Shown here one piece after another: positions 48,930 through 62,494 of a stretch of DNA of 64,000 nt. The translations under genes were made by a program, and so were the position numbers. Under the pieces are notes generated by a model, which was not told where the DNA came from, did no database searches, and saw only the letters and a program-made list of their open reading frames with translations. The DNA comes from Streptantibioticus cattleyicolor NRRL 8057 = DSM 46488 (GTDB taxonomy: Bacteria > Actinomycetota > Actinomycetes > Streptomycetales > Streptomycetaceae): the NCBI RefSeq assembly GCF_000240165.1, contig NC_017586.1, positions 5,221,228 through 5,285,227 of the forward strand, written 5' to 3'. Each line of letters begins with the position of its first letter. Positions within the stretch are counted from its first letter, which is position 1.

Positions 48930-48978
48930 CGGCGGCCATGCGCGGCGAGACTTTACGGTCCGCCGCGCATGGCCGCCG
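48930..48978 (+). terminator. Terminator after the reductase gene
   Basis: Perfect 18-base-pair stem (48930-48947 with 48961-48978) and 13-base loop, 20 bases after the stop codon. Confidence 0.88.
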
Positions 48979-48991
48979 CCTCCTCGGGTAC
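48967..48991 (+). promoter_or_regulatory. SigB-type promoter of the SseB-like gene
   Basis: GCAT (48967-48970), 15 bases, then GGGTAC (48986-48991), matching the streptomycete SigB consensus GNNT-N15-GGGTAC. It lies 63 bases before the SseB-like ATG, in the correct orientation; the -35 falls in the arm of the preceding terminator. Confidence 0.5.
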
Positions 48992-49054
48992 GCGGCCCCA
49001 CCAGTGGCCGGCGGGCGCCGGCCACGGTGACCCCTGACCCGAGGAGGAGACCTC

Positions 49055-49465
49055 ATGACCGACCACATCCCCGGCGGCGACCCCAGCGTCGTGCAGAACG
49101 CGCTCCACCAGCTCGCCGCCGACCGGGAGGACGTCGTCGCCCTCGGCACCCTGGCCGCCAGCGACGTGCTGCTGCCGGTGCCGGACAACGTGCCCAGCCC
49201 CAACGGCTCGGAACCGCAGGAGATCACCCTGCCGGTCTTCGAGCAGAGCGACGGGGTACGCCTGGTGCCGGTGTTCACCTCCGAGGAGCGGATGGCGCTC
49301 GCCCTGCCGCAGGTGCACAGCTACCGCACGGTCCCGCTGGCCGTGCTCGGCCGCGGCTGGCCCGCCGACGACCTCGCGCTCTCCATCGACGCCGGTTCGC
49401 CCGACACGCTGACCGTCCAGGGCCAGGGGGTGCGGGCGCTGGCCACGCTCACCGAGGGCGGCTGA
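49055..49465 (+). CDS. SseB-family protein
   Basis: A 136-residue protein resembling the SseB N-terminal domain: an ALHQLAADREDVVALGTLAA helix-strand, then LPVPD, EITLPVFEQSDGVRLVPVFTSEERM and a C-terminal LPLAV-like strand pair. Role unknown in actinobacteria; SseB proteins are linked to stress and serine-sensitivity phenotypes elsewhere. GAGGAGGAGA precedes the ATG. A SigB-type promoter lies upstream. Ends 1 base from the convergent PAP2-kinase gene. Confidence 0.78.
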   Translation: MTDHIPGGDPSVVQNALHQLAADREDVVALGTLAASDVLLPVPDNVPSPNGSEPQEITLPVFEQSDGVRLVPVFTSEERMALALPQVHSYRTVPLAVLGRGWPADDLALSIDAGSPDTLTVQGQGVRALATLTEGG

Positions 49466-49466
49466 A

Positions 49467-50945
49467 CTACGCCGGACGGTAGACCACCACGGCCCCCGCG
49501 GCCTTCCGGATGGTCAGCTCGGCCGGCGCGGGCGCCACCTCGCCGTCGTACGCGAGGTGGGTGCCCGCCGCCAGGCCGCCCACCCGCAGGCTGCGCAGCC
49601 TGCGGGCCGAGTACACCGGCGTCCGCGCCAGCCCCCCGGTCAGCGCCGCCGCCAGCAGCCGGGTACGGGCGAACCGGCCGCCGTCCACCACTCGCACGTC
49701 CAGCAGCCCGTCGGCGAGGTCGGCGCGGCGCGACGGTACCAGCCCGGCGCCCCGCCGGTACGCGCAGTTGCCGACGAAGAGCAGCCACACCCGGCGCTGC
49801 CGTCCGCCCACCACCACCGGCAGCGGACGCGCCGTACGCAGCACGTGCACCGCCGCCAGCACGCTCGCCGGCCAGCTCCCCAGCCGCCGCGACCAGCGCT
49901 CCCTGATCCGCACCAGCTCCGGGTAGGCACCCAGGCTGAAGGTGTTGACGAACGGGACGTGCCGTCCGTCCGGGCCGCTGAACCAGGCCAGGTCCATCGC
50001 GGTGGCCGAGCCCTCCCGCACCGCCCGAGCGGTCTCCTCCGCGGTCTCCGTGCCCAGGTCGAGGGCGAGGTGGTTGCGGGTGCCGCCGGGGAAGACGGCC
50101 AGCGGGACGTGGTGCCGGGCGGCGATCCCGGCCGCGGTGTTCACGGTGCCGTCGCCGCCGTGCACGCCCAGCGCGCCGCCGCGTTCCGCCGCCTGCCGGG
50201 ACGCCTTCTCCAGCAGTTCGCGCAGGTCGTCGTCCTCGGTGGCCTCGACGACCTCGGCCCGCGGCAGCAGCTCGGCGAGGCGGACGGCCGCCGGGGCCAG
50301 CAGCGACGGGGTGCCCGAGGCGCTGTTGACCACCACGGTCAGCCCCTCGCCGTCCGGCAGCGCGGGCGCGGCCGGCGCCGGGTGCCCCGGCGAGGCCGCC
50401 CGCTCCTCGGCCGGGGCGGCGACCGGCACCACCGCGCGCAGCAGCAGCGCCGCGGCGGTGCCCACCGCCGCCCCGGCCAGCACGTCACTGGGGTAGTGCA
50501 CCCCGGTGTAGATCCGGGAGAAGGCCACGGACGCGGCGACGGGGATCACCACCGGCGCCCAGCGCGACGCCTGGAGGGCCACCCCGGTGGCGAAGGCCGC
50601 CGCGGAGGCCGCGTGCCCGGACGGGAACGACGTGGTGAACGGCTGCCGGGCCAGCCGGCGCAGCACCGGCACCTCGTCCAGCACCGGCCGCGCCCGCCGC
50701 ACACTGCGCTTGCCCACGGTGTTGACCACCAGCGACGCCAGCGCCAGCGATCCCACCCCGCGCAACGCCGCGCGCCGCCCGCGCCGTCCGCCGGCCACGG
50801 CGAGCGCGCCGGCCCCCGCCAGCCACAGCACCCCGTGGTCGGCGGCCCGGCTCAGCCGAGGGAGCACCGGCTCCGCCCCCGGCCACCGGCGGGTCGCCAC
50901 CTGAAGGAAGAGCGCGCGGTCCCAGGCGCCGATTCGGTGTCCCAT
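49467..50945 (-). CDS. Bifunctional PAP2 phosphatase / diacylglycerol kinase-family protein
   Basis: A 492-residue fusion. Residues 1-195 are a PAP2-type membrane phosphatase with its three motifs intact: KRSVRRARP, PSGHAAS and SRIYTGVHYPSD, between about five hydrophobic segments. Residues about 205-490 are a diacylglycerol/sphingosine kinase-like domain with VVVNSASGT and the nucleotide loop GVHGGDGTVN near 270, plus FPGGTRNHLAL. The two activities oppose each other (dephosphorylation and phosphorylation of lipid head groups), which suggests lipid turnover control. A GAAT-N15-GGGTAG element (50979-50955) ends 9 bases before the ATG. Probably follows ChaB in the stress operon. Confidence 0.93.
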   Translation of the reverse strand: MGHRIGAWDRALFLQVATRRWPGAEPVLPRLSRAADHGVLWLAGAGALAVAGGRRGRRAALRGVGSLALASLVVNTVGKRSVRRARPVLDEVPVLRRLARQPFTTSFPSGHAASAAAFATGVALQASRWAPVVIPVAASVAFSRIYTGVHYPSDVLAGAAVGTAAALLLRAVVPVAAPAEERAASPGHPAPAAPALPDGEGLTVVVNSASGTPSLLAPAAVRLAELLPRAEVVEATEDDDLRELLEKASRQAAERGGALGVHGGDGTVNTAAGIAARHHVPLAVFPGGTRNHLALDLGTETAEETARAVREGSATAMDLAWFSGPDGRHVPFVNTFSLGAYPELVRIRERWSRRLGSWPASVLAAVHVLRTARPLPVVVGGRQRRVWLLFVGNCAYRRGAGLVPSRRADLADGLLDVRVVDGGRFARTRLLAAALTGGLARTPVYSARRLRSLRVGGLAAGTHLAYDGEVAPAPAELTIRKAAGAVVVYRPA

Positions 50946-51066
50946 GCGCCGCGTCTACCCGCCGGTCGTCGCAGCATTCCTGACGGAGCGTCAGGTGATG
51001 TCGTGTCAGCACATCGATGCCGCCGCACGGACGAGTGTCGTGCGGCGGCACCGTGAACGGGGGGCC

Positions 51067-51468
51067 TCAGCGGCGGGCCCGCTCCGTGGAACGGTCGTTG
51101 GCCTTGCGGATGGCGTCGACCAGCTCGGACTTGGACATCCGCGAGCGGCCCTCCACGCCCAGGCGCTTGGCCACGTCGTACAGATGCTCCTTGCTCGCCC
51201 CGGTGTCGACGCCCTGGGCCGACTCGCCCCCGCTGCCGCGCGGACGGCGGGACCGCTCGTCGGACGGCCCCTTACGGCCGCCCTCCTTGCGCTCCCAGTG
51301 GTCGCCGACCTTCTCGTAGGTGTGCTTCAGCGCACCGTAGGCCACCCGGTGGGCGCGCTCGCCCTCGCCGTACTCGCGCACGGCCGAGTCATGGGCCTTG
51401 ATCCAGGTCCGCTGTGCCTTGCTCTCCGAACGGCGGATGGTGTCCGGTAGTTCTTCCCGTCCCGGCAT
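51067..51468 (-). CDS. ChaB-family protein with Rho-N-like C-terminus
   Basis: A 133-residue protein. Residues 1-65 match ChaB (GREELPDTIRRS, AQRTWIKAHDSAVREYG, HRVAYGALKHTYEKVGDHW). A basic serine/glycine linker follows, and residues about 95-130 form a Rho N-terminal/SAP-like helix pair (LYDVAKRLGV, MSKSELVDAIRKAN) that may bind nucleic acid. GGAGGTGACAGCG precedes the ATG at 51468. Third or fourth gene of the hemerythrin-DUF2795-CBS-ChaB run (gap 42 bases). Confidence 0.87.
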   Translation of the reverse strand: MPGREELPDTIRRSESKAQRTWIKAHDSAVREYGEGERAHRVAYGALKHTYEKVGDHWERKEGGRKGPSDERSRRPRGSGGESAQGVDTGASKEHLYDVAKRLGVEGRSRMSKSELVDAIRKANDRSTERARR

Positions 51469-51510
51469 CGCTGTCACCTCCAGGTTCGCGGGACCGCCGG
51501 CGCCGGGCCG

Positions 51511-51939
51511 TCAGCGGTCGGGGTCGGCGGCGCTGATGTCGGCCAGCGCGGAGCCGGGCTCCTGCTCGCGGGCGAGGTCACCCAGGCTGACCATGCCCAC
51601 CGGCCGGCCGTCCTCGACCACCGGCAGCCGACGCACCGCGTGCTCCCGCATCAGCCGCGCCGCCTGCTCGGCCGAGTCCCTGGGGCCGATGACCACCGGG
51701 TCGGGGGTGCAGACCGAACCGGCGCTCAGCCCGCTCGGGTCCACCCCGTCCGCGACCGCCCGGACGGTGATGTCCCGGTCGGTGACCACCCCCAGCACCG
51801 TGTCGTCACCGGCCACCACCACGTCGCCGATGTCCTGCTCGCGCATGAGCCGGGCAACCTCCACCAGGGAAGCCTGCGGGCGCACGGCGGTCACACCACC
51901 GGTCATCACGTCCTTCACCAGCGTTGCCATGTCGGTCAT
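51511..51939 (-). CDS. Tandem CBS-domain protein (Hrp1-like)
   Basis: A 142-residue protein of two CBS motifs: VKDVMTGGVTAVRPQASLVE...LGVVTDRDITVRAVA and PVVIGPRDSAEQAARLMREH...GMVSLGDLAREQ. It is similar in size and layout to mycobacterial hypoxic response protein Hrp1 (Rv2626c). Such proteins bind adenosyl ligands and form dimers. GAGGAGGTC precedes the ATG. 60 bases after DUF2795 and 42 before ChaB, same strand. Confidence 0.9.
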   Translation of the reverse strand: MTDMATLVKDVMTGGVTAVRPQASLVEVARLMREQDIGDVVVAGDDTVLGVVTDRDITVRAVADGVDPSGLSAGSVCTPDPVVIGPRDSAEQAARLMREHAVRRLPVVEDGRPVGMVSLGDLAREQEPGSALADISAADPDR

Positions 51940-51999
51940 GACCTCCTCGGGTCATCCGTTCGTCGTCGTCGGGTCGTTGCTGCATCGCACGCCGCGTGT

Positions 52000-52365
52000 T
52001 CAGCGACGCAGCGCCTGGGTGACCTGCTGCACGTTCTGGTACGTGGTCTCCGGCGGCAGCCCGCTCACCAGCTCGGTGAGGGCGTCCGGGGCGTGCGCGC
52101 TCTCCAGGTCGCGCAGCAGCGTGCGGCGCTTGGCGGGGAACGCCTTGCGGCCCAGATGACGGGCGAGCTCGAAGCGGAGCGACTCCAGGTCCGGTGCCCC
52201 CGCCGAAACCGGCCCGGTGGTCACCGCCGGGTCGTCGTCCGCCCCCGGCTCCGGGTCGTGCCACTCCTCCACCCGGGTCGGGCGGCCGGAGCGGATCAGC
52301 CCCTGCAACTCGTGCTTCATCACGTCGTCCTTGTGGACGCTGAGCCGGTCGCTGCCTCGCTGCAT
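52000..52365 (-). CDS. DUF2795-domain protein
   Basis: A 121-residue protein matching DUF2795: basic N-terminus RLSVHKDDVMKHELQGLIR, an acidic linker, then a compact helical domain LESLRFELARHLGRKAFPAKRR... ending in TTYQNVQQVTQAL. Function unknown; common in streptomycete stress-gene clusters. GGGAGGAAACACC precedes the ATG. 74 bases downstream of the hemerythrin gene and probably co-transcribed with it. Confidence 0.82.
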   Translation of the reverse strand: MQRGSDRLSVHKDDVMKHELQGLIRSGRPTRVEEWHDPEPGADDDPAVTTGPVSAGAPDLESLRFELARHLGRKAFPAKRRTLLRDLESAHAPDALTELVSGLPPETTYQNVQQVTQALRR

Positions 52366-52439
52366 GGTGTTTCCTCCCGGCTTGCGGTATTCGCTGCCTT
52401 GCGCCTTTCCCGGCCCGCGCCAGGCATTCCTGCCACCGG

Positions 52440-53021
52440 TCAGCTCGTGCCCATCACCTTGCGCACCGCGTCCCGGGTGCGGTCCATCACCGCCGCCACC
52501 GGGCCGACCAGCATGTTCTTCGCCGCCGACTCGGTACCCGGATGCGGATGGGTGGGCGCCACCGTCTCCGCCGCCCGTACCGCCTTGGCCATCGCCTGCA
52601 ACCGGGCCGGGTCGCCGGCCTCCCGCAGCCGGGGGAACTCGTAGGTCTCCTCCGCCTCCGCGTGCGCCAGCACGTCGTCCTTGAAGGCGGTGAACCTGGT
52701 GACGAAGTCCGGCGAGTCCGGGTCGGCGTCCTCCAGCGCGCTCAGCGTGTGCTTGGCCGCCGCCTCCTCCTTCAGCCGGGCGGAGACCACCTGGTCGCCG
52801 CCGGCCACCGCGCGCCGGGCGTAGGGGTGGACCACTTCCTCCTCGGCGGTCTCGTGCACCGCCAGCAGGTGGACCAGCCGGCCGAACGCCGCCGCGCGCT
52901 CCTTGCCGGTGCGGGCCAGCACCTCGTCCATCAGGCGGCGGACCTCCTCGTGCTGCGACTTCAGCAGCAGCACCACGTCATTGCTCTCCGGCTGCTCTCC
53001 GACGGTGGGGTGCTCCGTCAT
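52440..53021 (-). CDS. Hemerythrin HHE-domain protein
   Basis: A 193-residue four-helix protein with the iron-ligand pattern of HHE hemerythrins: LLLKSQHEEVRRLMDEVL (His), HLLAVHETAEEEVVHPYAR (His, Glu), KHTLSALE (His) and DVLAHAEAEETYEFPRL (His, Glu). It would bind a di-iron centre and O2 or reactive nitrogen/oxygen species. C-terminal 40 residues are flexible. GGGAGGAAGG precedes the ATG at 53021. First gene of the stress operon and directly downstream of a SigB-type promoter. Confidence 0.9.
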   Translation of the reverse strand: MTEHPTVGEQPESNDVVLLLKSQHEEVRRLMDEVLARTGKERAAAFGRLVHLLAVHETAEEEVVHPYARRAVAGGDQVVSARLKEEAAAKHTLSALEDADPDSPDFVTRFTAFKDDVLAHAEAEETYEFPRLREAGDPARLQAMAKAVRAAETVAPTHPHPGTESAAKNMLVGPVAAVMDRTRDAVRKVMGTS

Positions 53022-53063
53022 CGTCGTCCTTCCTCCCGGTTCGTAACGTCTCGGGTGCGGCGG

Positions 53064-53088
53064 GTACCCGTACCGGCGGCGGCGACAC
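53064..53088 (-). promoter_or_regulatory. SigB-type promoter of the hemerythrin operon
   Basis: On the minus strand GTGT (53088-53085), 15 bases, GGGTAC (53069-53064). It matches GNNT-N15-GGGTAC and ends 42 bases before the ATG. The spacer begins CGCCGCCGC, as in the promoter of the Vms1-like gene. Confidence 0.65.
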
Positions 53089-53184
53089 CACGACACATCC
53101 GGTCGCCCGGCGCGGGTTTGGGCCGGCGGTGGACGGGGACCCGGGCGGCATCCGATGGGCTGATCGGAGTGGGAATGAGGGAAA

Positions 53185-53215
53185 GTGGGCGCGGGTCCTC
53201 ACGGCCCGCGCCCAC
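53185..53215. other. Hairpin in the promoter region of the GNAT gene
   Basis: GTGGGCGCGGG (53185-53195) and CCCGCGCCCAC (53205-53215) form an 11-base-pair stem with a 9-base loop, between divergent genes where a terminator is not expected. It ends 26 bases before the GNAT start. Confidence 0.5.
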
Positions 53216-53241
53216 CTCATGCCCGGCATTACGATCACCGG

Positions 53242-53775
53242 GTGACCGCTGACTTCCTCGCCCGCGGCGAACGCGTCGCCATCCGCCGCCTCGCCCGCAC
53301 CGACCGCGCCGAGTTCACCCGGCTGGCCAGGCAGAACGCCGAACAGCACCGCCCGTGGCTGTTCCCGCCCACCACCGACGAGGAGTTCGACACCTACTAC
53401 GCCCGGCTCCAGGAACCGGTCCGGGACGGGTTCGCCATCTGCCTCGCCGACACCGGTGAACTCGCCGGCTACGTGACCATCAACAACATCGTGCACGGCG
53501 CCTTCCGCTGCGGCGCCCTGGGGTACGGCGGCTTCCTGCCCGGCCGGGGACTGGTCACCGAGGGCGTCGCGCTGGTGGTGCGGTACGCCTTCGAGCAGTT
53601 GGGGCTGCACCGGCTGGAGGTCAACATCCAGCCGGACAACGACCGTTCACTCGCGCTGGTGCGACGGCTCGGCATGCGCCGCGAGGGGTACTCGCCCGAC
53701 TTCCTCTTCATCGACGGCGCCTGGCGCGACCACGAACGCTGGGCGATCACCGCGGAGATGCTGGAGCGGGGGTGA
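53242..53775 (+). CDS. RimJ/RimL-type GNAT N-acetyltransferase
   Basis: A 177-residue acetyltransferase. VAIRRLARTDRAEFTRLARQ begins the fold; the acetyl-CoA loop is GYGGFLPGRGLVTEGVAL near residue 95, followed by LHRLEVNIQPDNDRSLALVRRLGMRREGY, the standard RimL helix-strand. Likely acetylates a protein N-terminus or small amine. The GTG at 53242 has no ribosome site; TACGAT 6 bases before it could be a -10, so translation may be leaderless. Convergent with the Vms1-like gene (13-base gap). Confidence 0.88.
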   Translation: MTADFLARGERVAIRRLARTDRAEFTRLARQNAEQHRPWLFPPTTDEEFDTYYARLQEPVRDGFAICLADTGELAGYVTINNIVHGAFRCGALGYGGFLPGRGLVTEGVALVVRYAFEQLGLHRLEVNIQPDNDRSLALVRRLGMRREGYSPDFLFIDGAWRDHERWAITAEMLERG

Positions 53776-53788
53776 CCCGCCGGCCCGC

Positions 53789-54919
53789 CTACCGCGCCGG
53801 CTCGGCCCAGCGCAGCAGCGCGCCCAGCCCGCCGGCCGGCGCCTCGGCCCCGTCCACCCGCAGCACCTCCGCCCCGGTGGCGGCGGCCGAACGCAGCAGC
53901 GCGTCGTCGGCCCGGGCCGGGGCGGGCCGGACCGCGCCCAGGTACGCGCTGTCGGTACGGCGGTCGGAGACCTGGTCGGGGTCGGTGCCCACCCACACCT
54001 CACGGGCCACGTCGGAGCCGTCGGGGTCGATCAGCAGCGCCGCGATGCGGTGTTCCCGGGCCGCCTCGACGAGCGCGGGGACCCCCTCGGCCGCCGCGGC
54101 CGGTCCGGCGCCGGTGGCCTTGGCCCGTTCGGCGCGGTAGCGCTCCAGCACGTCCAGGGTGTGTTCGCGCACCCGGTCGTGGCGCACCCGGTCCACGTCG
54201 TGGTCGAGCCGGCCGCGGTCGCCGGAGCCGGCCGCGCGGGAGCCGTGCTCGGACTCGGTGGTCACCGCCCGCACCGGTCCCGGGAGCCGCATCCGCACCT
54301 CGTGCCGGATGCGCGGATCGCCGGCGAGCACCACGACATCGGCACCGCACCGCCGCCACAGCCGGCTCAACTCCTCGGCGACCACGGTGGCGTTGCGTTC
54401 CCAGGTCTCCTCCACCGACCGGTCGAAGTGGTGCTCGGACCAGTCGGCGCTCGCCGTGCGGTGCACCGGCCACCGCTCGCCGGACACCTCACCCGCCGCG
54501 TGGGCGCCGGTGCCGGAACGCAACCAGAAGTCGGCGCCGGTGCGGTCCACCCGGGCCAGCAGGCAGGTCGGCTCCCGGGCCGCCAGCTCCACCAGCGGGG
54601 TCAGCCGGGGCAGCGCCGAGAAGTCCACCAGATCGGTGGCCGGCGCCCGCGCCAGCGGTACGTCCAGCACCACCTGGCCGGCGGTGGCGTACACCACGCG
54701 CCCGGCGGGTGAGCCGCCCGGCGCCGGGGTGGTCAGCGCCCGGTGGACCGCCTCCCGGGTCTCCCGGTCCGCGCCGTGCGCCTCCAGCTCGTCGCGGGCC
54801 GCGCGGGCCGCCAGCTCCCGTCGGGCGGCGGTGTCCTCGGCGGGCCGTCCGGTGGCGACGCAGACCGTGGCCCACGGGCCGGGACGGTCCAGCAGCGGGG
54901 CGGCGAAATCCAGCTCCAT
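53789..54919 (-). CDS. Vms1/baeRF2-family protein (Rv2629-like)
   Basis: A 376-residue protein of the bacterial eRF1-like (baeRF2) group related to Vms1/Ankzf1 peptidyl-tRNA hydrolases and to mycobacterial dormancy protein Rv2629. Segments: PWATVCVATGRPAEDTAARRE at residue 14, VVYATAGQVVLDVPLA near 78, CLLARVDRTGADFWLR near 115, VVAEELSRLWRRCGADVVVLAGDPRI near 180, and IAALLIDPDGSDVAREVWVG near 290. It may act on stalled ribosomes or tRNAs under stress. AGGAGG precedes the ATG at 54919. A SigB-type promoter is 40 bases upstream. Confidence 0.85.
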   Translation of the reverse strand: MELDFAAPLLDRPGPWATVCVATGRPAEDTAARRELAARAARDELEAHGADRETREAVHRALTTPAPGGSPAGRVVYATAGQVVLDVPLARAPATDLVDFSALPRLTPLVELAAREPTCLLARVDRTGADFWLRSGTGAHAAGEVSGERWPVHRTASADWSEHHFDRSVEETWERNATVVAEELSRLWRRCGADVVVLAGDPRIRHEVRMRLPGPVRAVTTESEHGSRAAGSGDRGRLDHDVDRVRHDRVREHTLDVLERYRAERAKATGAGPAAAAEGVPALVEAAREHRIAALLIDPDGSDVAREVWVGTDPDQVSDRRTDSAYLGAVRPAPARADDALLRSAAATGAEVLRVDGAEAPAGGLGALLRWAEPAR

Positions 54920-54937
54920 CGTTGCCTCCTGATCGCC

Positions 54938-54983
54938 GTATGGATGACCACGGCGCGGGTACCCGACGTTGCGGCGGCGACAC
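54938..54983. promoter_or_regulatory. Divergent SigB-type promoters sharing a GGGTACCC -10
   Basis: Minus strand: GTGT (54983-54980), 15 bases, GGGTAC (54964-54959), for the Vms1-like gene. Plus strand: GTAT (54938-54941), 15 bases, GGGTAC (54957-54962), for the DUF6158 gene. The two -10 elements overlap in the palindrome GGGTACCC (54957-54964). Confidence 0.65.
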
Positions 54984-55007
54984 GGATGACGCGGAGAAGG
55001 AGCGACC

Positions 55008-55250
55008 ATGGCCGAGCACGACAGCGGTGTGCCCGCCGAGCGGCTGGACGACCGGGTGCTGCTGCGGGAGCTGGAGGCGATCCACCGGACGCGGCACGAG
55101 ACGCTGCTGCACGGTTCGGCGGAGGCGCTGGCCACGCACACCGCGCGCATGCGGGAACTGGAGGCCGAGTATCTGCGCCGGCACCCCGCGCGGGTCCCCG
55201 CGGCCGGCCGCACCCGGGCCGGCGCCCGCGCCCGGGCCACCGAGGAGTAA
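55008..55250 (+). CDS. DUF6158-type small protein
   Basis: An 80-residue protein matching DUF6158: GVPAERLDDRVLLRELEAIH, then TRHETLLHGSAEALATHTAR and MRELEAEYLRRHP, mostly helical, with a basic alanine-rich tail. Function unknown; commonly stress-associated in actinobacteria. AAGGAGCGACC precedes the ATG. It is driven by the plus-strand half of the divergent SigB-type promoter and closed by a strong hairpin. Confidence 0.82.
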   Translation: MAEHDSGVPAERLDDRVLLRELEAIHRTRHETLLHGSAEALATHTARMRELEAEYLRRHPARVPAAGRTRAGARARATEE

Positions 55251-55269
55251 CGGCCCCGGATGGAACGCC

Positions 55270-55313
55270 CGAGCCCCGGCCGGCGCCTCCGAGGGCGCGC
55301 CGGCCGGGGCTCG
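55270..55313. terminator. Bidirectional terminator
   Basis: Perfect 17-base-pair stem (55270-55286 with 55297-55313), 10-base loop, between convergent DUF6158 and enolase-superfamily genes. Confidence 0.9.
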
Positions 55314-55320
55314 CCGCGTC

Positions 55321-56481
55321 TCACACCACCCGGTACCGCGCCACGTCCGCCTCCTTCAGCGTCAGCCCCAGCCCCGGTTCACCGGAGGCGCCCGGGGTGA
55401 CCGTCCCGCCGGTGGGGTCGAGCACCCCGTCGAAGAAGAGCGACTCGACGCGCACGTGGTCGTGGAACCACTCCAGATGCCGGGCGTTGGGCACGGCGGC
55501 GGCCACGTGGGCGTGGGCGTGCGGGGCGCGGTGGCCGGAGACGTCCAGGCAGTGCGCCCGGGCCAGCGCCGCCGCGCGCAGCCACTCGGTCACGCCACCG
55601 CACCGGGTCACGTCCACCTGGAGGCAGTCGACCGCGCCGGCCTGCGTCAGCCGGGCGAAGTACGGCAGGTCGTAGCCGTACTCACCGGCCGCCACGTCGC
55701 AGTCGAGGGCGTCGCGCACCACCCGCAGCCCGGCCAGGTCGTCGGCGGGTACCGGCTCCTCGAACCAGCTCACCCCGTAGTCGGCGAGCACCCGGCCGAC
55801 CCGTACCGCCTGCTTGCGCGCGTAGGCGCCGCCCGCGTCCACGAACAACTCGGCGCCGGAGCCGATCATCTCCCGGGCGTGCCGGGCCCGGGCCAGGTCC
55901 CGTGCCGGATCGCCGCCCCGGTCCTGACCGATCTGGATCTTCACCCGCCCGATGCCGTGGCCGCGCACCCACCCCTCCAGCTGGGTCGCCAGCCGCACGT
56001 CCGGATACGTGGTGAACCCCCCGCTGCCGTACACCGGGACCTCGGCCACCGCCGACCCCAGCAGCGTGGCCAGCGGCAGCCCCAGCAGCCGTGCCTTCAG
56101 GTCCCACAACGCCAGGTCCACCGCCGACAGGGCGCACGCGACCAGCCCCGGGCGCCCGGCGTCGCGCACCGCGCGGCACATCGCCTCGTGCGCCGCCGGC
56201 ACCTCCAGCGCCCCGCGCCCGATCACCTCGCCGGCCAGCAGCTCGTGCACCACCGCGCTCGTGGTGCCCGGCGCGTACGTCCAGCCCAGCCCGCTCACCT
56301 CGCCGCTGTACGCCCGCACCAGCACCACGCTGGTGGTGTCCCCGGCGGGGGAGTCGGTGGGCACCGCGTACGCCGACGCCTCCAGCCGCTCGACCACCGG
56401 CCCGCCGTCCGGCTCCGGCCACAGCCGCCCGTCGACCCGCCGCACCCGCCCGGCCCCGCCGCCTCCGTCCGTGCCTCGCAT
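55321..56481 (-). CDS. Enolase-superfamily (mandelate racemase-like) enzyme, probable acid-sugar dehydratase
   Basis: A 386-residue enzyme with an N-terminal capping domain and C-terminal barrel. Barrel motifs: VKIQIGQDRGG near residue 178 (family KxK base site, second Lys replaced by Gln), metal ligands Asp in LFVDAGGAY near 215, Glu in SWFEEPVP near 240 and Glu in AAGEYGYD near 266, and a His-rich SGHRAPHAHAH near 315 that supplies the other base. Likely dehydrates a sugar acid. Last gene of the oxidation operon; the ATG has GGGAGG upstream, 12 bases after the GMC stop. The Lys-to-Gln change makes the exact reaction uncertain. Confidence 0.85.
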   Translation of the reverse strand: MRGTDGGGGAGRVRRVDGRLWPEPDGGPVVERLEASAYAVPTDSPAGDTTSVVLVRAYSGEVSGLGWTYAPGTTSAVVHELLAGEVIGRGALEVPAAHEAMCRAVRDAGRPGLVACALSAVDLALWDLKARLLGLPLATLLGSAVAEVPVYGSGGFTTYPDVRLATQLEGWVRGHGIGRVKIQIGQDRGGDPARDLARARHAREMIGSGAELFVDAGGAYARKQAVRVGRVLADYGVSWFEEPVPADDLAGLRVVRDALDCDVAAGEYGYDLPYFARLTQAGAVDCLQVDVTRCGGVTEWLRAAALARAHCLDVSGHRAPHAHAHVAAAVPNARHLEWFHDHVRVESLFFDGVLDPTGGTVTPGASGEPGLGLTLKEADVARYRVV

Positions 56482-56493
56482 CCTGGGTCCTCC

Positions 56494-58212
56494 CTACGCC
56501 CGCACGCCGCGCCGGGCGCCTTCGATCAGCCGCTGCGCGGCGCGGTCGGCGAGCGCCATGATGGTCAGCGCCGGGTTGGCGCTGCCCTGGGTCGGCAGCA
56601 CGCTGCCGTCGGTGATGTACAGGTTGGGCACGGCGTGGGTGCGCAGCCAGGGGTCGACCACCCCGTCCTCGGGGCGGGCCGACATCCGGCAGCCGCCGAC
56701 CAGATGGGCGTAGCGCTCGATGGTCATCACCTCCGACGCCCCGGCGGCCCGCAGGATGTCCTCCATCACCCGGGTGGCGGCGGCCATCAACTGGTCGTCG
56801 TTGTCGCAGTGGCTGTGCGAGAACTCGGCGACCGGCAGCCCGTGGCGGTCGGTCTGGTCGGCGAGCGTGACCCGGTTGTCCGCCTGCGGCAGGAACTCGC
56901 AGAGCGCGCCGAGGGTGGCCCAGTGCGTGTAGTCGGCCATGTAGCGGCGCAGGTCGTCGCCCCAGTGGCCCTGCGCGGCGACGTGCTCGGCCCAGGTGAT
57001 CGGCAGCGGCGAGATGGTCTGCACGGAGAAGCCGCGCCGGTACGGCTTGGCCGGATCGGTCTCGTAGAACGCCTCGGTGGAGGTCTCCGGCGGCGGCGCC
57101 TTGTACATGCGCACCGTCTCCTCGAACCGCCCGGCGGTCTGCGGCGCCCCCTGCACCATCACGTACCGGCCCACCTGGTCGTGGTCGTTGCAAAGACCGT
57201 CGGGGAAGCGGGAGTTGGCCGAGTTCAGCAGCAGCCGCGGGGTCTCGATGGAGTATCCGGCCACCGCGACCATCCGGGCCCGCTGGACGTACTCCCGGCC
57301 GTGGTCGATGTAGCGCACCCCGGTGGCGTAGCGGCCCTGCGCGTCGGTCTCGATCGCGGTCACCATGGAGTGCGCCCGGATCTCGGCGCCGTGCGCCAGC
57401 GCGTCGGGGACGTGGGTGATCAGCGGCGACGCCTTGGCGTTGACCTTGCAGCCCTGGAGGCAGAAGCCGCGGTAGATGCAGTGCGGCCGGTTGCCGAACC
57501 GCCCGTTGGTGATGGCCACCGGACCCACCCGGGCCTCGATGCCCAGCTCCGCGCAACCGCGCAGCATGATCTCCCCGTTGCCGCTCACCGGGTGCGGCGC
57601 GTACGGGTACGGGTGCGGGTCGCCCCACGGCCAGTACTGCCCGGCCACCGGCAGCTCGCGCTCCAGCCGCACGTAGTACGGCGCCAGGTCCTCGTAGGCG
57701 ATGGGCCAGTCGGCGCCCACCCCGTCCTGGCTGCGGGTGCGGAAGTCGGAGGGGTGGAAACGCGGCGCGAACCCGGCGAAGTGCACCATCGAACCGCCCA
57801 CGCCGCGGCCGGAGTTGTTGGCCCCCAGCGGTACCGGGTTGGCGCCGCTGATCACCCGAGGCTCGTTCCAGTACAGATGGTGCGAGCCGGCCTCGTCGCT
57901 GACCCAGTCGTGCTCGATGTCCCAGAACGGCCCGGCCTCCAGACAGACCACCCGCCACCCGGCGTGCGCCAGCCGCTGGGTGACGGTGGCGCCGCCCGCC
58001 CCGCAGCCGATCACCACGATGTCGACCTCGTCGTCCGGGTCGAACCGCCGCATCGACTCCAGCAGCCGCCGGTCGAACCGCCGGTCGTCGTCGGGCAGCA
58101 GCCACGCCGAGGCGTTGCGCTCCCGGACGTCCGCCTGCGACCGGGCGGTCTCGCGCAGCGTGTCGACGGCCGGGCGCAGCCACCCGGTCCCGCGGGTCCG
58201 TCCCTGCTTCAC
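56494..58212 (-). CDS. GMC-family FAD oxidoreductase
   Basis: A 572-residue flavoprotein of the glucose-methanol-choline family. The FAD loop is VVIGCGAGGATVTQRLAHAG near residue 60, with LEAGP at the end of the strand. C-terminal active-site segment: HLVGGCRMS near 510, then LYITDGSVLPTQGSANPALTIMALADRAA. CIYRGFCLQGCKVNAKAS is typical of gluconate-dehydrogenase-type large subunits. It probably oxidises a sugar or polyol together with the subunit-3 protein upstream. The GTG at 58212 overlaps that gene's stop by 4 bases (GTGA) and follows GGGAGGA. No signal peptide. Confidence 0.92.
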   Translation of the reverse strand: MKQGRTRGTGWLRPAVDTLRETARSQADVRERNASAWLLPDDDRRFDRRLLESMRRFDPDDEVDIVVIGCGAGGATVTQRLAHAGWRVVCLEAGPFWDIEHDWVSDEAGSHHLYWNEPRVISGANPVPLGANNSGRGVGGSMVHFAGFAPRFHPSDFRTRSQDGVGADWPIAYEDLAPYYVRLERELPVAGQYWPWGDPHPYPYAPHPVSGNGEIMLRGCAELGIEARVGPVAITNGRFGNRPHCIYRGFCLQGCKVNAKASPLITHVPDALAHGAEIRAHSMVTAIETDAQGRYATGVRYIDHGREYVQRARMVAVAGYSIETPRLLLNSANSRFPDGLCNDHDQVGRYVMVQGAPQTAGRFEETVRMYKAPPPETSTEAFYETDPAKPYRRGFSVQTISPLPITWAEHVAAQGHWGDDLRRYMADYTHWATLGALCEFLPQADNRVTLADQTDRHGLPVAEFSHSHCDNDDQLMAAATRVMEDILRAAGASEVMTIERYAHLVGGCRMSARPEDGVVDPWLRTHAVPNLYITDGSVLPTQGSANPALTIMALADRAAQRLIEGARRGVRA

Positions 58213-58808
58213 CGCGGCTCCTCCCACGGCTCGCGTGCCCCCAGGCCCAGCCGCAGATAGCCGCGCGGATAGGCGGGGCCGCCGAAGCCGATCTCGTCCC
58301 AGGCGTGCGGATGCGCGTAGTAGGCCGCGCACAGGTAACGCGTCCACAGCGACCACACATGGCTCGCCGGCATGCCGTACCACTCGTGGGAGCCCAGCTC
58401 CTTGACGTGGGTCAGCAGCCGGTGCTGGTCGCCGTAGCCGATCGCGGCGAAGCCGGTGCCCTCGTGGCGCAGGCGCGCGTCCTCGTCGAGCCCGGCCAGC
58501 GAACGCCGCCAGGCGTCGCCGTCCTCGGGCATGTCCCGGTACCGCCAGCCGTCGATCTGGCCCTCGGCGAGCCGCTGGTCGACCAGTTCCAGCACCGGCA
58601 CCGGGCAGTCGTCGGGCAGGTCCAGCAGGTGGCCGGCGAGCGGGCGGGCCACCGCCACCTCGGGCGGGGTGAAGAACCGGGCGTCCGGCTGGGGGCCGAG
58701 CCGGGCCAGCACCACCCCGGCGGTCACCCGGTCCCAGTGGTCGGCCTGGTCCACCACCGAGCCGCCGCGCGCGGGGCGCCGTCGGCGCCGCGGGATGTCG
58801 TCGGCCAT
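58209..58808 (-). CDS. Gluconate 2-dehydrogenase subunit 3-family protein
   Basis: A 199-residue small subunit. The family pattern is visible: FFTPPEVAVARPLAGHLL near residue 45, VLELVDQRLAEGQIDGW near 72, and a C-terminal WSLWTRYLCAAYYAHPHAWDEIGFGGPAYPRGY region, read in pieces. In homologous dehydrogenases subunit 3 helps assemble or export the flavoprotein; here the basic N-terminus (RRRRRPARGG) lacks a hydrophobic core, so export is doubtful. Coupled to the GMC gene by a 4-base overlap. Confidence 0.88.
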   Translation of the reverse strand: MADDIPRRRRRPARGGSVVDQADHWDRVTAGVVLARLGPQPDARFFTPPEVAVARPLAGHLLDLPDDCPVPVLELVDQRLAEGQIDGWRYRDMPEDGDAWRRSLAGLDEDARLRHEGTGFAAIGYGDQHRLLTHVKELGSHEWYGMPASHVWSLWTRYLCAAYYAHPHAWDEIGFGGPAYPRGYLRLGLGAREPWEEPR

Positions 58809-58809
58809 C

Positions 58810-59331
58810 TCAGCGCTCCCGCCGCAGCACCGAGGCGAGCAGCCCCATCCCGCCGACCATGGACATCAGCAGCGGCGCGAACAGCGGCGGCCCCATCTCC
58901 ACGTTGTAGCGGGCCATCCGCCAGCCGCCGGGCTTCTGCGCGATGCCCCGCACATGCAGATAGGTGCCCTGCAGACCATTGGCCGCGATCGCCGCCGACG
59001 CCAGCGGCAACGCGGTGTGCGCCGCCCGCTCGCTGCGGAACGCCGCCACCCCGGCCGCCACCCCCACCGGACCGAGCAGCACCGGCCACCACATCACGCG
59101 GTTGCCGAACCCGGCCCGGTCGTGCTCCAGGTAGATCTCCGCCGCCGTGATCGCCGACCCGGCCGCGGTCAGCAGCGCCAACGACCGCTCCAGCCGCCCG
59201 TGGCGCACGTCCTCGGCGGCCCGCAGCGCGAACCGCGCGGCCCGTGCCTTCGTCCGCGTGGCGCCGGGGGAGCGGACCAGCCGGGCCGCCAGCCCCGGCA
59301 GCCGCGCGGCGGACGCGGCCCGGCTACTCAC
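58810..59331 (-). CDS. Four-helix membrane protein
   Basis: A 173-residue protein with four hydrophobic segments: ALLTAAGSAITAAEIYLEH near 58, MWWPVLLGPVGVAAGVAA near 83, ALPLASAAIAANGLQGTYL near 110, and LFAPLLMSMVGGMGLLASVL near 150. I do not recognise the family. The GTG at 59331 follows GAGGG, 8 bases after the stop of the ThDP enzyme, and its stop is 1 base from the subunit-3 start. It may anchor the dehydrogenase or carry electrons onward; that is inference from position only. Confidence 0.75.
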   Translation of the reverse strand: MSSRAASAARLPGLAARLVRSPGATRTKARAARFALRAAEDVRHGRLERSLALLTAAGSAITAAEIYLEHDRAGFGNRVMWWPVLLGPVGVAAGVAAFRSERAAHTALPLASAAIAANGLQGTYLHVRGIAQKPGGWRMARYNVEMGPPLFAPLLMSMVGGMGLLASVLRRER

Positions 59332-59339
59332 CGCCGCCC

Positions 59340-61145
59340 TCAACCCTGCTCACCCGCCTTTTTGCGGCCCGGCAGGAACTCCTGGACCTTCGCCTTCAGC
59401 CCCTGCTTGACCATGTCGCCCCGGTCGGCGTCGCCCTTGAGGATGGCGGCGGCGGTGGCCTCCATCTGGTCCCAGGTGGCGTGCGGCGGGATCGGCGGCA
59501 CCGCCGGATCGGTGAGGAACTCCAGCACCACCGGCCCGTCGGCGTCGAGCGCGTGCTGCCAGGCGGAGACCACGCCCTCGGGCTTCTCCACCCGGATCCC
59601 GGTCAGCCCCAGCGACTCGGCGAAGGCCGCGTAGTGCACGTCCGGGATCGACTGCGACGGCAGGAACTGCGGCGAACCGCTCATCGACCGCATCTCCCAG
59701 GTCACCTGGTTGAGGTCCTGGTTGTTCCACACCGCCACGATCAGCCGCGGATCGCTCCACTCGCCGCGGTACTTGGCGACGGTGATCAGCTCCGCCATCC
59801 CGTTCATCTGCATCGCGCCGTCCCCGACCAGCGCGATCGCCGGCCGGTCCGGATGGGCGAACTTCGCCCCGATCGCGTACGGCACCCCGCTGCCCATGGT
59901 CGCCAGCGTCCCCGACAGCGAACCGCGCATCCGGCCGCGCATCCGCACATGGCGCGCGTACCAGTTGGCCACCGAACCGGAGTCGCAGGTGAGCACGGCG
60001 TCCTCGGGCAGCAGCGGATCGAGGGCGTGGGCGACCAGTTCGGGGTTGATCGGGTCGGCCGACTGCTCGGCCCGCCGCGCCATCACCCCGTGCCACTTCT
60101 CCACGCCCGCGATCACGCCCTCCTGCCAGCCGCGGTCCGTCTTCCGCTCCAGCTTGGGCAGCAGCCGCAGCAGCGTGGCTCGCGCGTCGCCGACCAGGTT
60201 GACCTCGTACGGGTAGCGCATCCCCACCATGTGCGGATCGAGGTCGATCTGCACCCCGCGCGCGCTGCCGTAGTCCGGCATGAACTGCGCGTACGGGAAG
60301 CTCGACCCGATGGTCAGCAGCGTGTCGCAGTCCCGCATCAGCTCGTAGGAGGGACGGGAGCCCAGCAGCCCCACCGGGCCGGTGACGTACGGGAGTTCGT
60401 CGCTGAGCACGTCCTTGCCGAGCAGCGCCTTGGCCACCCCGGCGCCCAGGATGTCGGCCGCCTGCTCCACCTCCGCGCGGGCCCCGGCGGCGCCCTGGCC
60501 CACCAGGATCGCCACCTTCTCGCCGGCGTTGAGCACCTCGGCGGCCCGGTCCACCGCGTCCGCGTCCGGCAGCGGCGACCAGCCGGACAGGCCCATGCTG
60601 GACGGCACCATCTTGAAGGCGTGGGTGGGCGGGGAGTACTCCAGCTCCTGCACGTCCGCCGGGATGATCACCGCGGTCGGGCAGCGCCGGGAGTACGCGG
60701 TGCGGATCGCCCGGTCCAGCACGTTGGGCAGCTGCTCGGGGACGTTGACGGTCTCCACGAACTCGGCGGCCACGTCCTTGTAGAGCGTGTGCAGGTCGAC
60801 CTCCTGCTGGTACGAGCCGCCCATCGCGCTGCGGTTGGTCTGCCCGACGATCGCCACCACCGGGACGTGGTCGAGCTTGGCGTCGTACAACCCGTTGAGC
60901 AGGTGGATCGCCCCCGGCCCCGAGGTCGCCGCGCAGACCGCGACCTTGCCGGTGAACTTGGCGTACCCCACCGCCTCGAACGCCGCCATCTCCTCGTGCC
61001 GCGCCTGGATGAACCGCGGATCGTCACCGGCCCGGGCCCACGCGGCCAGCAGCCCGTTGATGCCATCACCCGGATAGGCGAACACATGGGTGATGCCCCA
61101 CTCCCGCAGCCGGGCGAGGACGTAGTCGGACACCTTGGTACTCAT
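59340..61145 (-). CDS. Thiamine-diphosphate enzyme, pyruvate-oxidase-like
   Basis: A 601-residue ThDP enzyme of the pyruvate oxidase/acetolactate synthase group. The cofactor-activating glutamate is in ARHEEMAAFEAVGYAKFTG near residue 50; TSGPGAIHLLNGL follows. The ThDP-binding site is the GDG-to-NN motif: VGDGAMQMNGMAEL near 430 and IVAVWNNQDLN 25 residues on. Residues about 185-330 are the central domain. Probably decarboxylates pyruvate or another 2-keto acid. The ATG at 61145 has AAGGAG 6 bases upstream. First gene of the minus-strand operon, behind a SigB-like promoter. Confidence 0.9.
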   Translation of the reverse strand: MSTKVSDYVLARLREWGITHVFAYPGDGINGLLAAWARAGDDPRFIQARHEEMAAFEAVGYAKFTGKVAVCAATSGPGAIHLLNGLYDAKLDHVPVVAIVGQTNRSAMGGSYQQEVDLHTLYKDVAAEFVETVNVPEQLPNVLDRAIRTAYSRRCPTAVIIPADVQELEYSPPTHAFKMVPSSMGLSGWSPLPDADAVDRAAEVLNAGEKVAILVGQGAAGARAEVEQAADILGAGVAKALLGKDVLSDELPYVTGPVGLLGSRPSYELMRDCDTLLTIGSSFPYAQFMPDYGSARGVQIDLDPHMVGMRYPYEVNLVGDARATLLRLLPKLERKTDRGWQEGVIAGVEKWHGVMARRAEQSADPINPELVAHALDPLLPEDAVLTCDSGSVANWYARHVRMRGRMRGSLSGTLATMGSGVPYAIGAKFAHPDRPAIALVGDGAMQMNGMAELITVAKYRGEWSDPRLIVAVWNNQDLNQVTWEMRSMSGSPQFLPSQSIPDVHYAAFAESLGLTGIRVEKPEGVVSAWQHALDADGPVVLEFLTDPAVPPIPPHATWDQMEATAAAILKGDADRGDMVKQGLKAKVQEFLPGRKKAGEQG

Positions 61146-61192
61146 CAGCGGCTCCTTCGCACGGTGGACGGGGCCCGGATCCACGCTCGCGG

Positions 61193-61217
61193 GTATCCGC
61201 CGACCGGCGGCGGAAAC
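61193..61217 (-). promoter_or_regulatory. SigB-like promoter of the ThDP-enzyme operon
   Basis: On the minus strand GTTT (61217-61214), 15 bases, GGATAC (61198-61193), one mismatch from GTTT-N15-GGGTAC. It ends 47 bases before the ATG. Confidence 0.5.
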
Positions 61218-61358
61218 CTGTTGGGCTTACTGTCGGAGAGAAGGCAACGCACGCCGGGCCGCACCGGCCACCCGAGCGAAGGAGTACCGCCCGGCGCACC
61301 ACGCAGACCGGTGCCCGGCCGGGCCGGGCACAGGACCAACGCATCCGTAAAGCGGAAT

Positions 61359-61383
61359 GTTTGGGGGCCTTGGGCCCGGGCAC
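61359..61383 (+). promoter_or_regulatory. SigB-like promoter of the sigma factor gene
   Basis: GTTT (61359-61362), 15 bases, GGGCAC (61378-61383), one mismatch from consensus, about 225 bases before the sigma-factor ATG. It would allow self-activation. The rest of the 464-base spacer 61146-61609 shows no gene. Confidence 0.42.
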
Positions 61384-61609
61384 GCGAACCTCCGTGCTTC
61401 GGACCGGAGGCACGCCCGTCGGGGCAGGTCACGCCTGCTCCGGCCGCGCGAGGGCACACCGGTCCGGGCGCCCGGATCCGGACGCAGGGCAGGCGCGGGA
61501 GAACGGCTCCAGGAGGGCCGGTCCCCCCGCCGAACGGTGGCCCAGCGGTCACAACACAACCCAACCCGCGCGGCATCGAGACTCCACCCAGCCAGGAGCC
61601 GAGGTCACC

Positions 61610-62494
61610 ATGCGTCGTACCCCCGATTCCCACCCGGCCGGCCCCGCCAGGACCCGCAAGCGCCCGGCAGCCGCCACAGCCACCGCCACCGCCGCCCGTC
61701 ACCCCGCCCGGCCGCACCGCGCCCGGCGCACCTCCCACCCGCACGACGACGCCCCCGACACCACCGACGCCTTCCGCCGGATAGCCACCCTGCCGGACGG
61801 CCCGGAACGGGACCGGCTGCGCAAGGAGGTGGTGGCGGCGTGGATACCCATGGCCGAACGCCTCGCCACCCGGTTCCGCAACCGCGGCGAGGCCGTCGAG
61901 GACCTCAAGCAGGTGGCCGCGCTCGGCCTGGTCAAGGCCGTCGACCGGTACGACCCGGAACGCGGCACCGCGTTCGCCAGCTTCGCGGTGCCCACCGTGG
62001 TCGGTGAGGTCAAACGCCACTTCCGCGACCACCTGTGGGGGCTGCACGTACCCCGCCGGGTGCAGGAACTGCGCAACCGGGTCCGTACCGCCCGCAACGA
62101 CCTGACCCAGTCCATCGACGGACGCGGCCCCACCGTCGCCGAGATCGCCGAACACGCCGGGCTCAGCGAGGAGGAGGTGCTCCTCGGCCTGGAGGCGATC
62201 GACAGCTTCTCCACCATGTCGCTCGACGCCGAACTGCCCGGCTCCGACGGCTACACGCTGGTCGACACCCTCGGCCTGCCCGACCCCGGCATGGACGCCG
62301 TGGTCGACCGGGAATCGGTCAAACCCCGGCTGCGGCAACTACCCGAACGCGAACGCACCATCTTGTACCTGCGGTTCTTCGACGACATGACGCAAAGCCA
62401 GATAGCCCGCATCATGGGCATCTCGCAAATGCACGTCTCCCGGCTGATCAACCGAACCTGCGCCCGGCTGCGCGCCGAGATCCTGGCCGAGTGA
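61610..62494 (+). CDS. SigB/SigF/SigG-family RNA polymerase sigma factor
   Basis: A 294-residue group 3 sigma factor. The first 45 residues are basic, proline/alanine-rich and disordered. Region 2 contains MAERLATRFRNRGEAVEDLKQ, the VAALGLVKAVDRYDPERGTAFAS core-binding and -10 contacts, and VPTVVGEVKRHFRDHLW. Region 3 is VPRRVQELRNRVRTARNDL. Region 4 has LPERERTILYLRFFDDMTQS and the helix-turn-helix IARIMGISQMHVSRLINR. The family directs stress and developmental genes from GNNT...GGGTAC promoters and is usually held by an anti-sigma factor; none is beside it. The ATG at 61610 follows GAGG. Candidate regulator of the genes at 49-61 kb. Confidence 0.93.
   Translation: MRRTPDSHPAGPARTRKRPAAATATATAARHPARPHRARRTSHPHDDAPDTTDAFRRIATLPDGPERDRLRKEVVAAWIPMAERLATRFRNRGEAVEDLKQVAALGLVKAVDRYDPERGTAFASFAVPTVVGEVKRHFRDHLWGLHVPRRVQELRNRVRTARNDLTQSIDGRGPTVAEIAEHAGLSEEEVLLGLEAIDSFSTMSLDAELPGSDGYTLVDTLGLPDPGMDAVVDRESVKPRLRQLPERERTILYLRFFDDMTQSQIARIMGISQMHVSRLINRTCARLRAEILAE

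Follow-up and report, generated by a model that had tools for sequence, protein, structure and literature searches.

The closest described counterparts of the genes considered here belong to the SigB-family regulons of Streptomyces coelicolor (SigB, F, G, H, I, K, L, M and N), in which a network of paralogous σ factors uses promoters with a GNNT or GTTT -35 element and a GGGNAN -10 element at a spacing of 14–16 nucleotides (nt) (PMC8346170). In two-plasmid tests, SigK and other SigB homologs recognized GCAT..GGGTAT, GTTT..GGGCAC and GTTT..GGGTAC, and cross-recognition was wide (PMC8346170). We analyzed a 64,000-nt stretch of the genome of Streptantibioticus cattleyicolor NRRL 8057 = DSM 46488 (contig NC_017586.1, positions 5,221,228 to 5,285,227; hereafter, the window), which shares these features: promoter-like sites of this kind lie around a gene for a σ factor of the same SigB/SigF/SigG family, and one of them precedes a homolog of the ribosome hibernation factor Balon. 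SigB-type promoters are already known in Streptomyces; what appears to be new is the link to a Balon-type hibernation gene, whose conserved, predicted alternative-σ promoter we consider the most interesting part of the locus. No link between the SigB network and such a gene was found in the literature searched. Our reading, held with good confidence, is that the locus represents a conserved SigB-family island of stress and dormancy genes.

In mycobacteria, the genes for Hrp1 and Balon are induced by hypoxia as part of the DosR regulon. The dormancy locus of Mycobacterium tuberculosis resembles the one described here in that a Hrp1-like CBS protein (Rv2626c) and a Balon-family factor (Rv2629) are encoded close together, and Balon genes generally occur in stress operons, sometimes with alternative σ factors (PMC10901736); in contrast to the mycobacterial locus, the counterparts in the window carry SigB-type promoters. 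Neither "Streptomyces" nor "promoter" occurs in the main text of PMC10901736. Another relevant system is sigma-8 (sav_741) of Streptomyces avermitilis, a SigB homolog without an adjacent rsbA-type anti-σ gene, which is autoregulated and whose promoters have a similar consensus; however, an AraC-family regulator lies next to sigma-8, and its reported consensus is far looser (PMC5402319). No anti-σ gene was present among the genes annotated around the σ gene of the window. Finally, bidirectional promoters with a symmetrical -10 element have been described, in which pseudo-symmetry lets RNA polymerase bind either way in a mutually exclusive manner (PMC10268837, PMC12825309). Those promoters are studied in E. 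coli and Salmonella, whereas the candidate described below is of SigB type, is centered on GGGTACCC between two named stress genes and occurs genus-wide.

A preliminary description of the window had reported six GNNT-N15-GGGTAC-like promoters and predicted from them a local general-stress regulon. All six sites were present upstream of the genes named for them, four as exact matches and two with one mismatch:

48967–48991, plus strand: candidate SigB-type promoter GCATG-N14-GGGTAC of the SseB-like gene; exact match, 63 nt before the ATG at 49055
53064–53088, minus strand: candidate SigB-type promoter GTGTC-N14-GGGTAC of the HHE-DUF2795-CBS-ChaB operon; exact match, 42 nt before the hemerythrin ATG
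54938–54962, plus strand: candidate SigB-type promoter GTATG-N14-GGGTAC of the DUF6158 gene; exact match, 45 nt before the start
54959–54983, minus strand: candidate SigB-type promoter GTGTC-N14-GGGTACCCG of the Balon-like gene; exact match, 39 nt before the start
61193–61217, minus strand: candidate promoter AGGTTTCC..GGATAC of the thiamine diphosphate (ThDP) enzyme operon; one-mismatch site GTTT-N15-GGATAC
61359–61383, plus strand: candidate promoter GTTTG-N14-GGGCAC of the σ gene; one-mismatch site, 226 nt before the ATG at 61610

The sites combine a GNNT -35, a GGGTAY -10 and a 14–16 nt spacer (four exactly, two as variants), lie upstream of genes and are conserved above their flanks. We examined the frequency of the motif in an 800-kilobase (kb) sample of the same genome and by whole-genome counts. 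The exact motif GNNT-N15-GGGTAC occurred seven times in the window against 1.22 expected, a number reached in none of 100 shuffles. Three of these matches, which the preliminary description did not mention, are in coding DNA (8318, minus strand; 24681, minus strand; 49235, plus strand), as might suit the explanation that all the sites match a loose consensus, rich in G+C, by chance; the density and conservation statistics contradict this explanation, which we consider extremely improbable. The 800 kb sample (654 called genes, 84% coding) contained seven exact motifs, one of them at most 200 nt upstream of a gene, whereas four exact upstream sites were found within 6 kb of the window. Among the first 30 matches on contig C1, 12 were non-coding (approximately 16% of the sequence is non-coding) and seven preceded a gene by no more than 250 nt (binomial P ∼0.001), and the whole genome contained 162 matches compared to 114 for the pattern read backward. 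With a background of 7 per ∼1150 genes (gene number estimated), four promoters among 10 genes correspond to P ∼3e-7, and four among the 48 genes of the window to P ∼2e-4. The preliminary description would have been contradicted by an equal motif frequency in coding DNA; the local enrichment over the 800 kb sample, the non-coding excess and the excess over the backward pattern show that this is not the case. The match at 49235–49259 lies inside the SseB-like coding sequence, in the same direction as the gene, and is probably due to chance.

Conservation was analyzed in relatives of the Balon-like protein, 367 of which were found with an alignment query (a single-protein contig scan gave none), including 80 named Streptomyces loci from related species whose Balon proteins are ∼76–92% identical to the query. 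Genes in these loci were called with a simple GC-frame script, whose starts agree with those reported for this region of the window. Five of the six sites proved to be conserved elements; the DUF6158-side promoter was weaker. In column profiles the promoter core was near 100% conserved and the flanks 40–60%; for the Balon site only the downstream flank served as a control, because DUF6158 coding sequence, itself conserved, lies upstream. The relatedness of the 80 loci raises the question of whether the conserved blocks reflect shared ancestry rather than selection on promoters, but this is very unlikely given the divergence of the non-coding flanks and the retention of SseB and Balon sites in relatives with 50–60% protein identity and, for DUF6158, of sites in different families of the same class. 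Base-by-base conservation and the fixed 15-nt spacer strongly support five of the six sites as SigB-type promoters, as the preliminary description had supposed. The sites are of two flavors: GTGT or GCAT with GGGTAC, and, before the σ and ThDP genes, GTTT with GGGCAN or GG(A/T)(T/G)AC.

The gene families of this region, identified with Pfam and NCBIfam, are SseB-like, ChaB/Rho_N, two-CBS, DUF2795, hemerythrin, GNAT, baeRF_family2, DUF6158, ThDP enzyme and σ factor. In the 80 named loci, clustering of the genes up to 10 kb away from Balon gave those for the σ factor (64 loci), the ThDP enzyme (42), DUF2795 (74), the CBS protein (68) and DUF6158 (54), as well as DJ-1/PfpI (79), catalase (29) and PAP2/DAGK (33) proteins, with gas-vesicle genes beyond; the SseB and hemerythrin genes were outside the island. 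The idea of a local regulon is supported by this recurrence of the σ, ThDP, DUF2795, CBS and Balon/DUF6158 genes together in Streptomyces. Overall the idea is partly supported: use of the adjacent σ factor is a prediction, and the stress trigger is deduced from gene content only.

The Balon-like gene and DUF6158 are divergent neighbors:

53789–54919, minus strand: gene for a homolog of the Balon/Rv2629-family ribosome hibernation factors ("Vms1-like", baeRF_family2; NCBIfam NF052289, PDB 8v9k)
54957–54964, no strand assigned: palindrome GGGTACCC, -10 of both divergent promoters, present in 80/80 named loci
55008–55250, plus strand: DUF6158 gene, 80 amino acids, predicted helical hairpin with a basic tail (Pfam PF19655, E 4.1e-30; model mean predicted local distance difference test score, pLDDT, 79)

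The product of the first gene had been called Vms1-like. The exact promoter match before it was confirmed, but its identity is now that of a Balon/Rv2629 homolog: residues 11–373 match PDB 8v9k chain z (Rv2629, full-length similarity) with E 1.3e-32, and NF052289 matches with E 9.7e-74. The score of the latter (248.7 bits) is below the curated cutoff of 320, and the protein is therefore treated as a homolog and not a confirmed equivalog; neither a GGQ nor a NIKS string is present. A role in ribosome hibernation is predicted for this organism. The promoter GTGT-N15-GGGTAC was found in 23 of 30 family-search loci (own copies included) and, in the GNNT form, in all 80 named loci, 42–56 nt from the ATG, with a spacer of 15 nt in 78, then CCGC in all, and GGGTACCCGC invariant.

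The Balon and DUF6158 promoters are opposed and overlap at the -10 element, with exact matches on both strands. GGGTACCC was present at the Balon promoter of every locus of the family set with a divergent DUF6158 gene, whereas DUF2795 promoters and most SseB promoters had GGGTACGCG instead. Because they overlap on one palindromic -10, the two sites resemble a single bidirectional promoter that would be occupied by one polymerase at a time. The -35 on the DUF6158 strand is weak in Streptomyces, where firing in both directions is therefore only plausible: a strict SigB-type site was detected on this strand in 16 of 54 loci. This poor -35, and the invariance of the 8-base-pair (bp) palindrome in 80/80 loci, above that of most promoter elements, would also suit a palindromic operator for some other regulator in place of a -10 used by both promoters. 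We consider an operator unlikely, since 78/80 loci have a GTGT -35 at a distance of exactly 15 nt, the DUF2795 and SseB promoters carry the same GGGTAC without the palindrome, and 7 of 10 loci from other families of the class have a strict SigB-type site before DUF6158, of the ordinary GCAT/GGAT-N15-GGGTAC form.

The first DUF6158 ATG was exactly 9 nt after the -10 in 61 of the 80 Streptomyces loci, and 9–10 nt after it in four of the other-family loci with a strict site, which is a leaderless geometry. A leaderless start as a general rule was dropped: the 61 loci and three other-family loci fit it, but 13 named loci start ∼38–44 nt away. In two loci of another family (L327 and L336), DUF6158 was located near a hemerythrin gene and had a strict SigB-type site with the ATG 9 nt past the -10, suggesting a leaderless mRNA.

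In the proposed model, RNA polymerase with a SigB-type σ factor would bind GTGT or GCAT ... GGGTAC promoters with a 15-nt spacer and would switch on the SseB-like protein, the hemerythrin-DUF2795-CBS-ChaB operon, and the divergent Balon-type hibernation factor and DUF6158. The last two would be served by one bidirectional promoter on GGGTACCC, with a single polymerase bound at any time, and the SigK-like σ gene and the divergent ThDP enzyme gene would use the second flavor, GTTT with GGGCAN or GG(A/T)(T/G)AC. A more far-reaching proposal, which we put forward tentatively and with some doubt, is that in Streptomyces and relatives Balon-type hibernation is under the SigB network through this bidirectional promoter, at which Balon and DUF6158 compete, that DUF6158 is a partner or modulator of hibernation, often leaderless, and that the sigK-like gene is controlled via a 21-nt dyad in its leader. 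If the link between the SigB network and the Balon-type gene is right, it would be a conserved and readily tested route by which filamentous soil bacteria silence ribosomes during stress, DUF6158 and DUF2795 would be core members of the response, and a natural bidirectional alternative-σ promoter would have been kept across many species.

The hemerythrin site precedes a group of minus-strand genes:

52440–53021, minus strand: hemerythrin (HHE) protein gene, first after the promoter here (Pfam PF01814, E 1.2e-16)
52000–52365, minus strand: DUF2795 protein gene (Pfam), directly after the conserved promoter in Streptomyces
51511–51939, minus strand: two-CBS-domain protein, best PDB match Hrp1 (Rv2626c), E 4.7e-23
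51067–51468, minus strand: ChaB and Rho_N domain protein gene (Pfam), last of the likely operon by gene order and short gaps

Gene order and short gaps suggest that these genes likely form one operon. The site was described as a hemerythrin promoter, and it is indeed exact and located before that gene, but in relatives it is the promoter of the DUF2795-CBS operon. Its counterpart, GTGTC-N14-GGGTACGCGG, preceded DUF2795 in about 75 of 81 loci of relatives, and a strict SigB-type site of any kind was found before 74/74 clustered DUF2795 genes. Hemerythrin orthologs are mostly without the promoter, which fits a site belonging to the DUF2795 operon. Of the genomes examined, this is the only one in which hemerythrin lies between the promoter and the operon; since it intervenes before DUF2795 with a gap of 74 bp, the site at 53064 most likely drives the whole HHE-DUF2795-CBS-ChaB operon. 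The protein was also considered as a PA2171-type ribosome-binding persister protein, which was rejected (NCBIfam NF053874, 47.9 bits vs cutoff 190). Two further hemerythrin paralogs of this genome (loci L023 and L026 on contig C1, motif at 1501–1525 in each) have an exact motif ∼40–60 nt upstream, which suggests that hemerythrins may be recurrent regulon members; in L026 the gene caller placed the motif inside an opposite-strand gene. The protein encoded at 51067–51468 is a fusion of a ChaB domain with a Rho N-terminal domain. In three loci of other families (L352, L353 and L362), DUF2795 was found within ∼1.5 kb of a distant Balon homolog; the pairing of these genes may therefore be older than Streptomyces.

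The remaining exact site, before the SseB-like gene, bears on which σ factor is used:

49055–49465, plus strand: SseB N-terminal-domain protein gene (Pfam PF07179, E 1.2e-15)
61610–62494, plus strand: SigB/SigF/SigG-family σ factor, SigK-like by position and tree (NCBIfam TIGR02980, 283 bits vs cutoff 234)

Before the SseB-like gene, GCATG-N14-GGGTA[CT] was present in 27 of 29 family relatives, and one further relative had it with a single mismatch. The strict promoter persisted in at least eight genomes that lack a close copy of the local σ factor (G005, G012, G025, G042, G046, G054, G066 and G078), where σ matches were just ∼55% identical, and the local σ factor is therefore not its only user. 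The window genome holds at least seven SigB-type paralogs. From these paralogs, the published cross-recognition and the SseB promoter without a close σ copy, we assign the regulon to a SigB-family network, in which the local σ factor probably participates. It is a serious possibility that the promoters are real but are read by other SigB-family σ factors (SigB-, SigH- or SigM-like), the adjacent σ factor being a co-regulated target and not the driver. The same observations point that way (seven paralogs, cross-recognition among nine SigB homologs, and the SseB promoter), as does the GTTT flavor of the σ gene (as for SigF/SigH/SigN) next to the GNNT flavor of the structural genes (as for SigB/SigL/SigM) (PMC8346170). 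However, SigK is reported to read both flavors (PMC8346170), and unless the σ gene plays a part in the island, its recurrence there at 64/80 loci would have to be put down to coincidence. Several points weigh against a conserved SigB-family island driven as proposed: the SseB promoter of genomes lacking a close σ copy, the ThDP site, whose -10 is GGATAC in the window vs GGTGAC in relatives, the score of the Balon-like protein below its family cutoff, the weakly conserved -35 on the DUF6158 strand even though the palindromic -10 is kept, and the uncertain true start of DUF6158. Among the promoters quoted from PMC8346170, those of the Balon, DUF6158, DUF2795, SseB-like and ThDP genes were not recognized.

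The σ and ThDP genes are divergent, and adjoin each other in Streptomyces as well:

59340–61145, minus strand: first gene of its operon, for a pyruvate oxidase-like ThDP-dependent enzyme (NCBIfam NF006129, E 7e-295)
61394–61414, plus strand: conserved 21-nt dyad GTGCTTCGGACCGGAGGCACG in the σ leader, 10 nt past the -10

A search demanding GGGTAY found strict sites in 0/64 σ and 0/40 ThDP loci, and for that reason missed both promoters; an interim conclusion that they are not conserved was withdrawn when anchoring on GTTT revealed the GGGCAN and GGTGAC forms. Within 350 nt upstream of the σ gene, GTTT followed at 15 nt by GGGCA[GCTA] or GGGAAT was present in 62 of 64 Streptomyces loci. For ThDP, relatives had AGGTTTTCC...GGTGACTCG (-10 GGTGAC) in 34 of 42 loci, and the equivalent in the window, AGGTTTCC...GGATAC, is at the same position. 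ThDP genes in the named Streptomyces loci (L187–L266) had a strongly conserved GTTTTC..GGGTGACTCG, with a -10 off the SigB consensus.

In a tree (FastTree, support values unused), the σ factor of the window grouped not with its own paralogs but with the Streptomyces σ factors whose genes lie between those for ThDP enzyme and gas vesicles, and a GvpL/GvpF family gene was found near it. In S. coelicolor the gas-vesicle operon is SCO6499-SCO6508 (PMC2687793), and a position near gvp genes is consistent with SigK (SCO6520). The σ factor is probably SigK-like by position and tree. Heat induction is reported for the gas-vesicle operon and for SCO6515, a gene annotated as coding for a protease (PMC2687793), which is consistent with a stress role.

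The leader dyad, nearly invariant in SigK-like leaders, occurred as GTGCTTCGGACNGGAGGCACG 10–11 nt past the σ -10 in 60 of the 61 loci that have both. It could be an RNA hairpin at the 5' end or an operator, its arms varying too little to tell the two apart. Rfam gave no match at E up to 1 in the 48–64 kb region, dyad included. Adjoining the σ gene, at 62540–63724, is an aminotransferase class I/II gene, which was in the island at 54/80 loci without a conserved SigB-type promoter.

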